Below, one piece after another: positions 23,749-29,613 of a stretch of DNA of 35,746 nt. Made by a program: the position numbers and the translations under genes. The stretch comes from Solirubrobacterales bacterium (GTDB lineage Bacteria; Actinomycetota; Thermoleophilia; Solirubrobacterales; Solirubrobacteraceae): contig JAFAPR010000051.1 of NCBI GenBank assembly GCA_019247075.1, positions 1-35,746 of the forward strand. Direction: 5' to 3'. Positions within the stretch are counted from its first letter, which is position 1, and each line of letters begins with the position of its first letter. The notes beneath the pieces are model-generated. The model did not search any database and was not told the DNA's origin. It worked only from the letters and a program-made list of their open reading frames with translations.

Positions 23749-24147
23749 TCAGCTCAGAAGCTCGGAGTCGTGAGCGCGAAATATCGCGGCATAGTCGCCG
23801 ACGCCGGGCTCATGCAGCGCCTTTACGAGGGCGTGGATCTTCGGCGTCATCACAAGCAGATACCGAGCGCGTTGACCGCGCCTGGCGTTGCCGTAGGCGT
23901 GCGGGGTTCCCTTCGCTGCCAAGACCGCAGAGTGAGGACCGGCCTCGCGGATCTGATCGCCAATCCTGAACCGCAACACCCCCTCGAGCACGTACCACGC
24001 CTCATCGTCCGCGTGATGCACATGCAGCGGCGCGATCCACTCCCACTGGGACTCGCCCGAATCCGCCCACTCGACAATCACAAAATCGCTCGCGGGCCCA
24101 CCAAGCTGGCGACCCACCAGGGAAGTAACAAAGTGCTCACTCGGCAC
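23749..24147 (-). CDS. single-domain cupin protein, 132 aa
   Basis: Cupin motif 1 is visible as HVHHADDEAWYVLEGVLRF (42-60), with metal ligands His42, His44 and Glu49. Motif 2 is GTPHAYGN with His83. Together they form a mononuclear metal site in a small beta-barrel. Function in such stand-alone cupins ranges from dioxygenase or isomerase to ligand sensor, and nothing here decides. The GTG at 24147 lies six bases after a TACGAT box and has no ribosome site, suggesting a leaderless transcript. It lies 74 bases downstream of the methyltransferase on the same strand and converges with the ABC permease, 37 bases away. Confidence 0.85.
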   Translation of the reverse strand: MPSEHFVTSLVGRQLGGPASDFVIVEWADSGESQWEWIAPLHVHHADDEAWYVLEGVLRFRIGDQIREAGPHSAVLAAKGTPHAYGNARRGQRARYLLVMTPKIHALVKALHEPGVGDYAAIFRAHDSELLS

Positions 24148-24153
24148 GGCCTG

Positions 24154-24182
24154 ATCGTATTAGGAGCCCGGTCTCCGGGCAA
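24154..24182 (-). promoter_or_regulatory. candidate leaderless promoter of the cupin, overlapped by a hairpin
   Basis: On the minus strand TTGCCC (24182-24177), 17 bases, then TACGAT (24159-24154) and six bases to the GTG. The perfect inverted repeat GCCCGG-TCT-CCGGGC (24166-24180) overlaps the -35 box and spacer. It could be an operator, or the terminator of the methyltransferase whose stop is 42 bases upstream. Confidence 0.4.
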
Positions 24183-24221
24183 TCTTGCCCAGCAGCCGCC
24201 CGCCGCCCGGGTGCAAGGTCC

Positions 24222-25013
24222 TCAGAAGCGGCTTGGCCGACGGCCGTGTGCCACGCAGATGGTTGGAGAAGTGATCGTGGTGCCAGGCTCTTCGAGCAGG
24301 CGCCGCGCCTGGTCGATCTCACTCCTGTCCGCGCCGAGGAGGATCAATTGCTCCCGCAACCGCTCGACCGTTAGCGACAGAAGGCGGCAGGGGAGTGACC
24401 CGCCGGGGTGGCAGCGAGAGATGTGGTCTGCGTGCACTTCGACAAGTCCGGCCGCGCGTAGGTCGCCGCACAGGCGCACGCCGTAAGCGGGATCCCAGCC
24501 CCCGGCCATCGCTGCGTCAAGGAATCGCGACCAAACCCGCTGCCACACCAGATTGGGCGGCGACAGAGCCACCGTGGTGAAGTCCGGAGCGATCGACGCC
24601 ACCCACCCTCCCGGTCGCGCGGCGCTCACAAGTCGCTGCAACGCCCCCAGGCGGGGTGAAAGAAACATCAGCAGCAGACGCGCATGGACGAGGTCAAACT
24701 CGCCTTCGGGCAGCTGGTCGGACAACAGGTCGTGACGGCGCACCTCGACCCGATCGCTCGCGAGCTCGTCGAGCAAGCTGACGTCGAGATCCACCGCAAG
24801 CACCGAGCCCGTGCTCCCGACCCGCTCGGCAAGCATCCGCGTGACCGACCCCCCGCCCGCCCCGGCATCCAGACAACGCCAGCCCTCGCCGACCCCAATC
24901 GCATCAAGCTGACCGGCGCTCAGCGGATCGTGGTACTCCTCAAGCAGCCTCAGCCGCGCCCGCTCCAGGTCAGGCGAACCTTCCTGAGAAAGAACGTACT
25001 CAGCCGTGGTTAC
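24222..25013 (-). CDS. class I SAM-dependent methyltransferase, 263 aa, start codon apparently lost
   Basis: Motif I is CLDAGAGGGSVTRML, followed by VLAVDLD, DLVHARLLLMFLSPRLGAL, and AARPGGWVASIAPDF. This is a standard Rossmann methyltransferase of the ubiE/type 11 kind with a C-terminal lid containing ADHISRCHPGGS. The expected N-terminus VTTAEYVLSQEG begins with GTA at 25013-25011. There is no ATG, GTG or TTG between there and motif I, where the first ATG would delete the SAM loop. Upstream the frame only runs into the DUF1326 gene. The stop of that gene and this codon read TAGTA. A TAGTG junction would give a GTG start in the usual one-base overlap, so one G-to-A change explains the defect. 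The substrate is unknown. Confidence 0.7.
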   Translation of the reverse strand, partial: VTTAEYVLSQEGSPDLERARLRLLEEYHDPLSAGQLDAIGVGEGWRCLDAGAGGGSVTRMLAERVGSTGSVLAVDLDVSLLDELASDRVEVRRHDLLSDQLPEGEFDLVHARLLLMFLSPRLGALQRLVSAARPGGWVASIAPDFTTVALSPPNLVWQRVWSRFLDAAMAGGWDPAYGVRLCGDLRAAGLVEVHADHISRCHPGGSLPCRLLSLTVERLREQLILLGADRSEIDQARRLLEEPGTTITSPTICVAHGRRPSRF

Positions 25014-25636
25014 TAGCGGTCGCTGCCCCAGTCTTGGTTTGAGACGAGCGAGGTGTGAACGCCGCCGTGGCTGAAGGCGATCTCGTCGGTCGAGCGCAGT
25101 GTGTCCGATCTCAGGATCTCGGCGAGACCGTCTCCGCGCGAGTACTCCATCCCTCCGGGAATCGCGACCCGCATGGTCTCTTCCTCGCCGGTGACCGGGT
25201 TTTTGATCGGGGCGAAGCGGTTCTCCATGACATCGCCAACGTTGATCGTGCCGGTGCGGCCCTCGACCTGGAAGTCGATCGGCAGGATCCCCGGGTCCTT
25301 GACCTCGGTGACTATGGTCGCGAGCACCTGGAACCAGGACCCCCCCGCTTGGCCGCTGAGGATCTGGCCGATGCTTTCCATCTGCTCCGAGCTCATCGAC
25401 GGGTCGAGATAGGGCTTGACGGTGCCGTTGCCTTCGTGCAGCGGGCCCGGCCAGTGAAACGCAACGCACCACTTCGATCCCGCCAGCGAGACGCCGTCGA
25501 ACGAGCCCTCGTCGACGCGCATGCCAATGAACCCTTCGCACGGTCCGTAGGTTGGAGGGCTCATGAAGTCGCACGGACACCCCGGCGCGCAGTTGCAGCT
25601 CTTGAAGTAGATCCCCTTCATCCGCCAGTCGGCCAT
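25013..25636 (-). CDS. DUF1326 domain protein, Cys-rich, 207 aa
   Basis: The protein matches the DUF1326 (PF07040) pattern. The N-terminus has C14-x-C16-x3-C20-x-C22 in FKSCNCAPGCPCDFMSPPT and C33 in GPCEG, followed by GFIGMRVDEGSFDGVSLAG, WPGPLHEGN and a C-terminal GGMEYSRGDG. The family has no proven biochemistry that I know. The Cys cluster looks like a metal-binding site. DUF1326 genes are known neighbours of DUF2182 genes, and a DUF2182 gene diverges here. The ATG at 25636 has GAAGGGA eight or so bases upstream. Its transcript, from a -10 box at 25691-25686, would have a leader of about 45 bases. The stop overlaps the methyltransferase. Confidence 0.85.
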   Translation of the reverse strand: MADWRMKGIYFKSCNCAPGCPCDFMSPPTYGPCEGFIGMRVDEGSFDGVSLAGSKWCVAFHWPGPLHEGNGTVKPYLDPSMSSEQMESIGQILSGQAGGSWFQVLATIVTEVKDPGILPIDFQVEGRTGTINVGDVMENRFAPIKNPVTGEEETMRVAIPGGMEYSRGDGLAEILRSDTLRSTDEIAFSHGGVHTSLVSNQDWGSDR

Positions 25637-25685
25637 TGTCTCAATCCCTTCGCCGCGCGCCTTCCCGAGAGGCGCAACCGTGACG

Positions 25686-25739
25686 AGCCTAACGCGATCG
25701 CCGAGGCAGTTGCAACCACTCTGCCTATCGGCCTAGCAT
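25686..25739. promoter_or_regulatory. divergent promoters sharing one palindromic -35 box
   Basis: TTGCAA at 25710-25715 is its own reverse complement. Rightwards it is followed by 18 bases and TAGCAT (25734-25739), nine bases before the DUF2182 ATG. Leftwards it is followed by 18 bases and TAGGCT (25691-25686), upstream of DUF1326. Polymerase could bind in only one direction at a time, so the two genes would be reciprocally or jointly controlled. Confidence 0.5.
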
Positions 25740-25748
25740 CAGCTCGGC

Positions 25749-26615
25749 ATGTCGATGGCAGGTCTGGACCGCGAGTGCTCGGGTCCCCGGCTAGCGCGAA
25801 GTCAGATCGCGCTTGTCGCGGCGCTGCTGGGCTGCGCCGCGCTCGGCTGGGCCGTCACGGACGCCCGGATGCGCGGGATGGATGCGGGTCCCGGCACGGA
25901 TCTGGGGGCGCTTGGCTTCTACACCATCAGCTGGGTGGTGATGATGGCCGCGATGATGTTTCCCTCGGTCGTGCCGATGGTGCTCGGCTACGCCCGTGTC
26001 GAGCGCGGCATGAGAACTCGCGGCCGCGCCGGCTCGTCAGCCGCGTTCGTCTGCGGATACCTCGTAGTCTGGACGGTGTTCGGGCTGCTCGCCTACGGCC
26101 TGTTTGACGGGGTCAAAGCGATGTCGATCGACGCGCTCCGATGGGACCATGACGGAAAGTATTTGGCCGGCGCCGTGATCGTTCTCGCTGCCGCTTACCA
26201 GCTGACTCCCGCCAAGGACGCGTGCCTGCGGCGGTGCCGCGATCCGTTCACCTTCCTGGCCGAGGAGTGGCGCGACGGCCGCGCAGGAGCGCTCAAGATG
26301 GGCACGCTACACGGAGCATGGTGTGCGGGCTGCTGTTGGGCGCTGATGGCCGCGCTCTTCGCGCTGGGGGTAATGAGCCTGGGCTGGATGGCGTTCGTGG
26401 CGGCGATCGTTGCCTTCGAGAAGCTCGTGCCATGGAGACGGATCGCGACGCACGCCGTCGCGGCCACGCTATTGGGCCTCGGCCTCGGCGTCGGGCTCGT
26501 GCCCGGACGCATCCCAGGGCTCACCTTGCCGAGCTCAGCCGCTGCCCGACACGCGATGCAGTCGATGCAGACTGCGATGCCGCGCATGCAGAACCACCGA
26601 ATGCGGGGCAAGTAG
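25749..26615 (+). CDS. DUF2182 integral membrane protein, Cys/Met-rich, 288 aa
   Basis: Fits DUF2182 (PF09948, formerly described as a predicted metal-binding membrane protein). An N-terminal helix (IALVAALLGCAALGWAV) is followed by ISWVVMMAAMMFPSVVPMVL (60-79), the family signature, then helices near 99-119 and 139-152. TPAKDACLRRCRDP has Cys159 and Cys163, and HGAWCAGCCWALM has His188, Cys192, Cys195 and Cys196. Two more helices follow. The C-terminal tail is Met-rich (Met270, 273, 277, 280, 285), a pattern seen in copper-binding proteins. A copper or other soft-metal role, perhaps together with DUF1326, is inference. The ATG at 25749 is nine bases from the TAGCAT box; ATG at 25755 is the alternative. 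It converges with the LAL regulator 55 bases away. Confidence 0.87.
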   Translation: MSMAGLDRECSGPRLARSQIALVAALLGCAALGWAVTDARMRGMDAGPGTDLGALGFYTISWVVMMAAMMFPSVVPMVLGYARVERGMRTRGRAGSSAAFVCGYLVVWTVFGLLAYGLFDGVKAMSIDALRWDHDGKYLAGAVIVLAAAYQLTPAKDACLRRCRDPFTFLAEEWRDGRAGALKMGTLHGAWCAGCCWALMAALFALGVMSLGWMAFVAAIVAFEKLVPWRRIATHAVAATLLGLGLGVGLVPGRIPGLTLPSSAAARHAMQSMQTAMPRMQNHRMRGK

Positions 26616-26670
26616 CGCCCGTCCAAGCCCGCGGAAGCGGGGTGTGTCGCGATGAGTCTGCCTGCTGGCG

Positions 26671-29613
26671 TCATCGCCGCGGCAGTTGCGCGGGCACGTC
26701 AGCTGTCTCGTCGACCGAGGTGATCAGCGTCGCGAGCGCGGCGCGGGAGTGGACTCCGAGCTTGTCGTAGATGCGGGCGAGATGGCTCTCGATCGTCTTT
26801 TCGCTCAGGAACAGGGCGGCGGCGACTTCACGGTTGGTTTCGCCTCGCGCTACATGTTGGGCCACCTCGCGTTCACGGGTGCTGAGCGCCCCCGGGCGCG
26901 AGCGCGCCGCCGTCCGTCGGCGGTGGACGCGTTTACCCAGGCGTCGCAGCTCGCGCGCGGCCGCGTCCGCTTCGCCGGTCGCGCCGCATGTCAGAAACAC
27001 GGCGCGAGCGCGCTCGAGCGCGGCGATCGCCTTGTCGCGTTCGCCCCCAGCAGCCAGGGCGCGACCGGTCAGCGCTCGGGCACGCGCCGCGAGCAACGGG
27101 TTTCCGGCATGCTCCGCCTGGGCGATTGCGGCTTGTGCCGTGCGCTTCGCTGCCTGGTGCTGCGCGCGCGCGAGCAGCACCGCCGCGCGAGCGCAGCCCG
27201 CGGTTGCGCTCTGCTGAGGCAGCTGGGTCGTAGCCGCGCGTGCCTCGGCGCGCGCGGCGGTCTCCTCGGCGGCGGCGAGGTCGCCCAGCGCGAGATGGGT
27301 GCGGGTGAGGAGCTCCCAGCCGTGGGCGCCGGCGAGGTCCAGCAGCTGGCGGGACGGGGTGGCTTCAAGGGACGCGAGCTGCTCACGACAGCCGGCTGCG
27401 TCCCCGGTGGCGTAAAGCGCGCCGGCGAGGCGCAGCTGGGCCAGTGGCGAGAAGAAGCTCTCGCCCAGGCGGTCGGAGTGTGCCACCGCCTCGCGGGCGT
27501 TGGCGAGCGCCCCTTCGCTGTCGCCGGCCCACATCGCTGCCATCGAGGCGGCCTCAGAGGCCCAAACGATCAGCTGGCCGTTGCCCGAGAGCAGCGCCGC
27601 GTCGACGGCCGTGTCGGCGACGCGGACGGCCTCGCTCACACGACCGCAAAGGATCAGTGCTTGGACTTGGAGGTTCAGCAGTCCGGGGATGTTCGATCCG
27701 CCTTGGCCCGAGGCACGCGAGAGCGAGAGCCCGCGTTGTACGGGGTCGAGCACGTGGTTCATCTCTTCCAGTGCGAACGCGGCCATCCCGAGCCAGCCGC
27801 ACAGATCGATCCGCTCGATCAGGTGCTCATCATCGATGGCGTCGAACGCCCCCAACGCGGTTCTCAGGTGGGCTTTCGCCGGCTCGACCTGGACTGTGCT
27901 CGACGCCGCGAGGCTGGCCAGGGCAGCCGCCAGGCAGACCAAGACAGGGTCTCCTCTGGCGCGCGCGTCGGCCAGGACCGCCACCGCCGTGTGCCCCATG
28001 GCGTCAAACTCGCCGCGGAAGTAGCAGTTGATGGAGATCTCGAGCCGCAGTGTGAGCGCATCGGCGGTATCCGTCGCGGGCAATGACCGCAGCGCCTGGT
28101 CGAGCAGGTCCCGCGACTCGAGCGGAAGCCCGGTCTGGCGTTTGACCGCCGCAATCTGGCCGATCAAACGGGCGCGCTGCCGCCGGTGGTCCGCGGGCAC
28201 GAGGTCCAGCGCCCGCATGAGCGCATCCAGCGCCTCCTCGAATACGCCGGCCTGCGCGAGCGCGTCGGCAGCCTCGGTGAGCAGGGTGAGTTGCAGCTCT
28301 GGGGGAGCGTCCGAGGTCAGCAATGCCAGCGCCGCCTGCAGACGGCGTGCAGCGGTCACGGGGGCGCGCGGCGCGACCTCGCGCGCCGCCTCGATCAGCA
28401 ACGCGATCGCCTGCTCGTCGCCCGCCACGGCCGAACGCTCGACATGAGCGGCTCGCGCCGCAAGCGAGTCGCCGGCGGTCTCGAGCGCCGCTGCGGCGCG
28501 GGCGTGCGCGGCAAGTAGCCACCCGCGACCCGTCCATTCGTACACGGCTCGGCGCACGATGGGGTGGCGGAAGCGAAATCGCCTGGGTGCATCTGTCGGG
28601 CGCACCACGTCCGCGTCGAGCAGCACATCGAGGCTTGCGAGGACCTCCGGCTCGGCCAGCTGCGCTATCGCCGCGACCAGCTCCGGCTCGAAGGCCTCGC
28701 CGGCCACGGCCGCGGACTCCAGTACCTTCCGCGTTCCAAGCGGCAACTCCGCAAGCTCATCGCGGATCGCGGCGGCCACGCTCGCCGGCACCTCGAGCTC
28801 GTGCGCCGACGAGAGCATCGACCCGGGTCCTGCTCGCAGCGGTCCATGGTGGGCGGCGCGGCCGAGTTCCTGAAGATAGAAGGGATTGCCGCCACTCTCT
28901 CGATACAGCGCCGAGCGCCTTGCGGGGTCGATCACTGGTTCCAACAGCGCGTCCGCCTCGCCGGCGGTCAGCGGCGCGAGCTCCAGGCGGACACAGCGCC
29001 CCGCGCGCTCGGCGGTGTCCAGAGCCGCGGCGAGGCGCGCTGGGGCCAGGCGGAAAGCGCAAACGGTCAGAAGCGGGCCGTGGAAGCGGCGCAGCAGGTG
29101 GGCGACCGCTTCGATCGAGCCCTCGTCTGACCAGTGCATGTCGTCGAGCGCCAAGACCACCGGCTGGTTGGCGGCCAAGCGCTCGAGCAGCGCGCGGATC
29201 GCGTAGTGCGCGCGGTAACGCTCGGCCTCCAGCCCGGGGCGGGACCGCCCGGTGGAAAGCGCCGCCAGCGAAGGGAAGATCTCCGCCAGCTCGGCGGCCA
29301 CCTCCTCGCCAAGCGCCCGAAGCAGGGCCGGGTCCAGGGCGCCCAAATAGTCGTTCACGGCGTCGAGCAGCACGCCGAACGGCACCGCGCGCTCGAATTC
29401 CGCCGCCCGTCCCTCGAGCACCAGATAGCCGCGTGCCTCGGCGCGAGCTGTGAGCTCGGACAACAGGCGGGACTTGCCGATTCCGGCTTCGCCGACGACC
29501 TCGAGCGCCCCGGGGTGCCCAGCGGCAAGTTGGTCCAGGGCTCCTTCGATCGCGGCCAACTCCTGCGAGCGCCCGACCAGCGCGCTCGCCGCGTGTCGAT
29601 CAGTACTGGGCAT
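26671..29613 (-). CDS. LAL-family (AAA+/TPR/LuxR) transcriptional regulator, 980 aa
   Basis: The domain order is that of MalT-like large LuxR regulators. It starts with LVGRSQELAAIEGAL, then an AAA_16 ATPase with Walker A GEAGIGKS (41-48) and Walker B VVLALDD (153-159), followed by MHWSD. A winged and helical region follows, and then a long TPR-like array (about 400-890) of A-rich helical pairs. The C-terminal LuxR helix-turn-helix (about 908-964) contains LSTREREVAQHVARGETN, REVAAALFLSEKTIESHLAR and IYDKLGVHSRAAL. ATP and an inducer would control oligomerisation and promoter binding. The ATG at 29613 has GAGGGGG about eight bases upstream. Its targets are not evident; it is divergent from the sigma-factor gene pair and converges with DUF2182. 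Length is typical. Confidence 0.93.
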   Translation of the reverse strand: MPSTDRHAASALVGRSQELAAIEGALDQLAAGHPGALEVVGEAGIGKSRLLSELTARAEARGYLVLEGRAAEFERAVPFGVLLDAVNDYLGALDPALLRALGEEVAAELAEIFPSLAALSTGRSRPGLEAERYRAHYAIRALLERLAANQPVVLALDDMHWSDEGSIEAVAHLLRRFHGPLLTVCAFRLAPARLAAALDTAERAGRCVRLELAPLTAGEADALLEPVIDPARRSALYRESGGNPFYLQELGRAAHHGPLRAGPGSMLSSAHELEVPASVAAAIRDELAELPLGTRKVLESAAVAGEAFEPELVAAIAQLAEPEVLASLDVLLDADVVRPTDAPRRFRFRHPIVRRAVYEWTGRGWLLAAHARAAAALETAGDSLAARAAHVERSAVAGDEQAIALLIEAAREVAPRAPVTAARRLQAALALLTSDAPPELQLTLLTEAADALAQAGVFEEALDALMRALDLVPADHRRQRARLIGQIAAVKRQTGLPLESRDLLDQALRSLPATDTADALTLRLEISINCYFRGEFDAMGHTAVAVLADARARGDPVLVCLAAALASLAASSTVQVEPAKAHLRTALGAFDAIDDEHLIERIDLCGWLGMAAFALEEMNHVLDPVQRGLSLSRASGQGGSNIPGLLNLQVQALILCGRVSEAVRVADTAVDAALLSGNGQLIVWASEAASMAAMWAGDSEGALANAREAVAHSDRLGESFFSPLAQLRLAGALYATGDAAGCREQLASLEATPSRQLLDLAGAHGWELLTRTHLALGDLAAAEETAARAEARAATTQLPQQSATAGCARAAVLLARAQHQAAKRTAQAAIAQAEHAGNPLLAARARALTGRALAAGGERDKAIAALERARAVFLTCGATGEADAAARELRRLGKRVHRRRTAARSRPGALSTREREVAQHVARGETNREVAAALFLSEKTIESHLARIYDKLGVHSRAALATLITSVDETADVPAQLPRR

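Follow-up and report, generated by a model that had tools for sequence, protein, structure and literature searches.

The divergent gene pair and its neighbours

The window, that is, the whole stretch of 35,746 nucleotides that was analysed, contains two divergent genes separated by a gap of 112 bases. The reverse-strand gene (25013..25636) encodes a DUF1326 protein of 207 amino acids (PF07040), assigned from its Pfam match, fold prediction and Cys alignment, and the forward-strand gene (25749..26615) encodes a 288-amino-acid protein of the DUF2182/PpoB2 family (PF09948, COG5486) with seven predicted membrane-length helices. The profile matches (E 2.5e-46 and 158.5 bits for DUF1326, curated cut-off 25; E 1.3e-63 and 214.8 bits for DUF2182, curated cut-off 28.7) confirmed the gene pair recognised in a preliminary description of this DNA. 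That description also held that the biochemistry of the two families was not known. A literature search by name indeed found no paper on DUF1326 or DUF2182, and the statement stands for DUF1326, a widespread family with no published function in the literature searched, but not for DUF2182, in view of the characterised PpoB2 (PMC2855505); the current name of PF09948 is PpoB2, "copper chaperone".

We then considered the genes around the pair. A SAM methyltransferase frame lies downstream of DUF1326 on the reverse strand (24222..about 25010), and it had been proposed to overlap the DUF1326 stop and thereby to extend the unit. However, when the frame was scanned for ATG, GTG or TTG from 25200 downwards, the first one reached was an ATG at 24836, inside the SAM domain. 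In an orthologue with 85% identity the probable start is a TTG; the window has an ACG at the aligned position, about 25007, which is already downstream of the DUF1326 stop. Furthermore, the methyltransferase orthologues (62-85% identity) lie on contigs of four genomes (G006, G007, G008 and G015) without a DUF1326 match, and the other divergent loci gave no methyltransferase match. We thus rejected the methyltransferase as a member of the unit. On the other side, a large LuxR-family regulator with an AAA_16 ATPase domain (26671-29613) lies tail to tail with DUF2182, and in most relatives no close match to it was found near the pair. An Rfam scan of 24000-27000 gave no match.

The source genome carries a second DUF1326-DUF2182 pair, in operon order, on contig 38 (L005 7040-8567). 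A ROK-like gene stands on one side of it and a gene like that of a ribosome hibernation factor on the other; secA and prfB follow downstream, and two adenosylhomocysteinase-like frames stand in tandem upstream of the pair (L005 3173-5920).

Promoters in the intergenic gap

The gap between the two genes contains a TTGCAA palindrome (25710..25715), which is the predicted -35 of both genes. On the forward strand it is followed, after a spacer of 18 bases, by TAGCAT (25734..25739), the predicted -10 of DUF2182, 9 bases before the ATG; on the reverse strand a spacer of the same length leads to TAGGCT (25686..25691), the predicted -10 of DUF1326, 49 bases before the ATG. The geometry reported in the preliminary description, a palindromic TTGCAA read in both directions with 18-base spacers to TANNNT boxes, is thus exact in the window. 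When the 112-base gap was shuffled 40,000 times with its dinucleotides preserved, the shared TTGCAA together with both -10 boxes never arose, a figure that is descriptive because the pattern was chosen post hoc, and any TTGNNN-TANNNT pair on both strands arose in 1.25e-4 of these shuffles. A strict scan for E. coli-type sigma-70 promoters and terminators found none.

The window was compared with the three other divergent members of its clade (L105, L106 and L108). As a result, one TTGNNN-17/18-TANNNT promoter per gene was found in all four members, and both promoters of the window therefore look genuine by this comparison. In the three relatives, the DUF1326 promoters consist of TTGCGC, TTGCAC or TTGCCT, a spacer of 17 and TAGGCT or TAGGGT, so that the DUF1326 -10 is one of these two hexamers in all four members. 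The DUF2182 promoters of the relatives combine TTGCTG, TTGTAG or TTGTCG, again with a spacer of 17, with TACGGT, TAGCGT or TAGGGT, and the TANNNT box stands 9-10 bases before the DUF2182 ATG, compared with 9 in the window. TANNNT boxes of the leaderless class are common in Actinobacteria (PMC3160421), and the DUF2182 mRNA is probably leaderless, as predicted from this spacing. No conserved regulator operator was visible in the gap in the alignment of the divergent relatives. Among further divergent pairs, L171 gave a promoter match for DUF1326 (TTGACA-17-TAGCCT) but none for DUF2182, and L161 gave none for either gene.

While the promoters themselves are conserved, their sharing of one -35 is not. 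In the three relatives the two promoters are interleaved with separate -35 boxes, and the DUF1326 -35 overlaps or adjoins the DUF2182 start codon, e.g. GTGCAATG. The DUF2182 start position of the relatives is lost in the window (TTGCAACC), where the start lies about 40 bases further on and DUF2182 re-uses the DUF1326 -35 in reverse. We infer from these alignments a promoter shift in the lineage of the window.

The preliminary description proposed that the shared palindrome could serve as a regulatory link and couple the two genes mechanically, a reading that we consider very improbable. It draws on the exact geometry, which is improbable in shuffles, and on the fact that TTGCAA can be occupied by only one polymerase at a time; yet such occupancy predicts mutual exclusion at most, and not coupling. 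In E. coli bidirectional promoters, where two polymerases likewise compete for one site, no competition occurs at basal activity, and it matters only if one direction is strongly activated (PMC12825309). These promoters share the -10, whereas the window shares the -35; the -10 boxes of the window are 42 bases apart and do not form a shared symmetric -10. Moreover, the closest DUF1326 orthologues (66-67% identity) have their DUF2182 genes in convergent or co-directional orientation. Since each gene of the relatives has its own -35 box and the majority of homologues are arranged otherwise than divergently, the shared -35 cannot be a general coupler. Control by one shared -35 thus holds for the sequence of the window and fails in its relatives; as far as these alignments tell, it is a true but local feature and not a conserved switch. 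The divergent pair differs among close relatives, with interleaved promoters or a shared -35, and this cautions against taking the geometry of a single genome for a conserved switch.

Co-occurrence, arrangement and partners across genomes

The pair is real and widespread. Among the 232 genomes of the order, 48 contain both families, 19 only DUF2182, 2 only DUF1326 and 163 neither (odds ratio 206, Fisher p 1.6e-31, a test that ignores kinship). In the order, 50 DUF2182 loci have a DUF1326 gene no more than 3 kb away; 34 of them are operons with DUF1326 first, 8 have DUF1326 after DUF2182, 6 are divergent and 2 convergent. On a quick tree of 125 DUF2182 proteins, in which many forks are weak, the arrangement changed at least 14 times. 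The pair would thus be kept through at least 14 changes of arrangement on this tree, and only a minority of loci are divergent. The comparison of gene neighbourhoods called for in the preliminary description revealed conservation of the pair, mostly as DUF1326-first operons, but not of its promoter geometry. Proteobacteria have the pair as well, for instance on Cupriavidus pHG1 and in Microvirga and Phyllobacterium. In the operons of Actinobacteria and Proteobacteria (Cupriavidus pHG1, Phyllobacterium, Rhodococcus) the same two families stand side by side, usually co-directional with DUF1326 first, whereas the pair of the window is divergent.

Some loci deviate in gene content. A DUF1326-DUF2182-DUF1326 cluster (L008, G002 contig 281) carries DUF1326 copies that seem to belong to different subfamilies, and on Cupriavidus necator pHG1 (L204) the pair is followed by a gene for a GDCCVxC (seleno)protein. 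In an apparent DUF1326-DUF2182 fusion in G014 (L021 622-1743), a single frame holds DUF2182 and the C-terminal part of DUF1326, but it is broken by an internal TAG and the DUF1326 N-terminus is missing; it looks like a decaying fusion or a pseudogene, and we did not accept it as evidence.

DUF2182 was also found next to other genes. Its 84 loci in the order include the 50 with DUF1326 nearby (up to 3 kb) and 5 with a tyrosinase gene (one of them with DUF1326 too); DUF899, which belongs to the thioredoxin-like clan (PMC3091736), adjoins at least 13 of the 30 loci that lack both. On the tree, the partner of DUF2182 changed at least 11 times, in a set of loci partly picked for lacking DUF1326. 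As its gene neighbourhoods show, DUF2182 swaps partners between DUF1326, thioredoxin-like DUF899 and tyrosinase, which is a new lead. The DUF899-linked loci (PF05988; among them L183, L184, L187, L188, L189 and L195) often contain an ArsR-like regulator and an SRPBCC-like protein. At L190, L191 and L192 (G008, G101 and G188) and at L208, the tyrosinase gene stands beside a diverged DUF2182, resembling the Marinomonas PpoB1-PpoB2 operon; the tyrosinase-linked DUF2182 proteins of the first three, members of the order, lack C159 and C195. A Rhizobium phaseoli plasmid has the same tyrosinase-DUF2182 association as Marinomonas.

Conserved cysteines, fold and a candidate copper module

The CxC-x3-CxC cluster noted earlier in the soluble protein corresponds to C14-C16-C20-C22 of DUF1326. 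All four residues, together with a fifth that the preliminary description omitted, C33, are invariant in 64/64 homologues, and their codons span 25538..25597 on the reverse strand. In the DUF1326 model (pLDDT 90.3), a beta-barrel, this Cys loop joins strand 1 to strand 2. The barrel superposed on acetoacetate decarboxylases and MppR with Z 9.4-9.9 over 153-163 residues and rmsd 3.2-4.4 (for 3bgt, 3c8w and MppR 4jmd, Z ~9.9, 156 residues and 3.8 A); the top seven rows of the search were all of these two kinds, and the next, unrelated, row had Z 7.7. The assignment rests on VIA-align, as Foldseek alone superposed acetoacetate decarboxylase poorly (TM 0.3). In contrast to acetoacetate decarboxylase, which has a Schiff-base catalytic lysine, DUF1326 has no lysine among its invariant or 90% columns (64 homologues) and carries the extra five-Cys loop. 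Furthermore, no sequence similarity was found: the PF06314 profile matched none of the 64 members, and the DUF1326 profile aligned with a single acetoacetate decarboxylase, from the genome itself, at a probability of 0.2% (hhalign). DUF1326 thus appears to share the fold and not to be the enzyme.

In DUF2182, the CxxxC (C159, C163; 26223..26237), in a loop predicted to be cytosolic, the mid-helix HxxxCxxCC (H188, C192, C195, C196; 26310..26336) and the Met-rich C-terminal tail (26538..26612), all on the forward strand, are present as first described. Nearly all of the Cys and Met residues are conserved, the Met-rich tail included, whereas H188 is not (66/105 DUF1326-linked homologues). Of 83 homologous tails, 94% contain at least 10% Met, with a mean of 19% in the tail vs 4% in the core. 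C163 and C192 are invariant in 125/125 homologues, including the tyrosinase-linked ones, and occur in the window together with an MMxxMM motif. Conservation of the Cys and Met residues, on which the preliminary description had made its metal-handling proposal depend, is thus found, for the cysteines in both families and for the methionines in DUF2182. The three residues C159, C195 and C196 are present together in 104/105 DUF1326-linked proteins, in 6/17 with DUF899 or no partner and in 0/3 tyrosinase-linked ones; a relatedness-aware test retained about 2 vs 0 pairs, too few for significance, and that these cysteines may track DUF1326 as partner is a lead from the alignment. Loop charges weakly suggest that the N-terminus and the CxxxC are inside and M41/M44 and the tail outside. 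The DUF2182 model (pLDDT 84) gave a best Z of 5.4, indistinguishable from generic helical bundles, with no usable PDB structure match, and no fold was assigned; PDB sequence searches with single proteins and profiles of the pair also yielded no usable match.

Marinomonas mediterranea PpoB2 belongs to the same family by profile (COG5486, PF09948) and is encoded beside its partner. According to a review, it was the first member of COG5486 to be given a role, and it transfers copper specifically to the tyrosinase PpoB1 (PMC2855505). PpoB2 is co-operonic with the tyrosinase, whereas the partner in the window is DUF1326; no tyrosinase match (PF00264) was found in the genome, which is 87% complete, so that the known client is absent. 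The tyrosinase genes beside DUF2182 in 5/84 loci of the order and on the Rhizobium plasmid match the Marinomonas arrangement. The pair is mostly ordinary and belongs to a copper-related module that is known but as yet poorly understood. The proposal of a metal-handling pair gains from the conservation, the co-occurrence and the copper role of PpoB2, and the metal, which we infer from this family, is probably copper.

On balance, we lean towards a widespread two-gene Cu(I)-handling module with separate promoters. DUF2182 would act as a membrane copper chaperone or conduit, which Cu(I) may enter at the Met-rich outer tail and M41/M44 and pass through by an intramembrane Met/Cys path (M65, M66, M69, M70, C192, C195, C196, M200, M209). 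The cytosolic CxxxC would then hand it directly to the partner, here the soluble barrel of DUF1326, whose five-Cys thiolate loop may accept and carry or buffer copper. Separate sigma-70-type promoters would drive the two genes, DUF2182 probably from a leaderless mRNA, and the common -35 would be a local change whose sole predicted effect is that the polymerases exclude each other under strong transcription.

The GDCCVxC (seleno)protein after the pair on pHG1 and the thioredoxin-like partner elsewhere make other soft-metal or thiol chemistry possible, and a MerR-type regulator and a rhodanese near the pair in Microvirga point the same way. That the pair handles Hg, Zn or Cd, or thiol redox stress, instead of copper is nevertheless unlikely, as the Met-rich path and tail of DUF2182 favour Cu(I) and the sole characterised PpoB2-family member serves copper; DUF899 is no argument against copper, with SCO1/SenC copper proteins in the same clan. 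DUF1326 might instead be an enzyme or client, with an acetoacetate-decarboxylase-like cavity and a catalytic or structural metal in the Cys loop, loaded by DUF2182 as PpoB2 loads tyrosinase. The fold matches extend over the whole DUF1326 chain, and tyrosinase takes the genomic place of DUF1326 in other DUF2182 loci, but the missing conserved lysine and sequence similarity described above make this role quite improbable.

The Cu(I)-handling reading has a further extension, which we put forward as a tentative possibility: DUF1326 may be the first of a novel class of Cu(I)-thiolate carriers in the cytosol, with an acetoacetate-decarboxylase-like barrel as scaffold and direct loading from a Met/Cys conduit in the membrane. 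The PpoB2 family may load copper in general, onto partners that can replace one another (DUF1326, DUF899, tyrosinase), the choice being written in C159/C195/C196. The main additions to the preliminary description are the copper role already known for PpoB2, a fifth Cys in DUF1326, its decarboxylase-like fold, the leaderless promoter and the partner-dependent cysteines; the copper-chaperone link, the fold and these cysteines make the role of DUF1326 directly testable.
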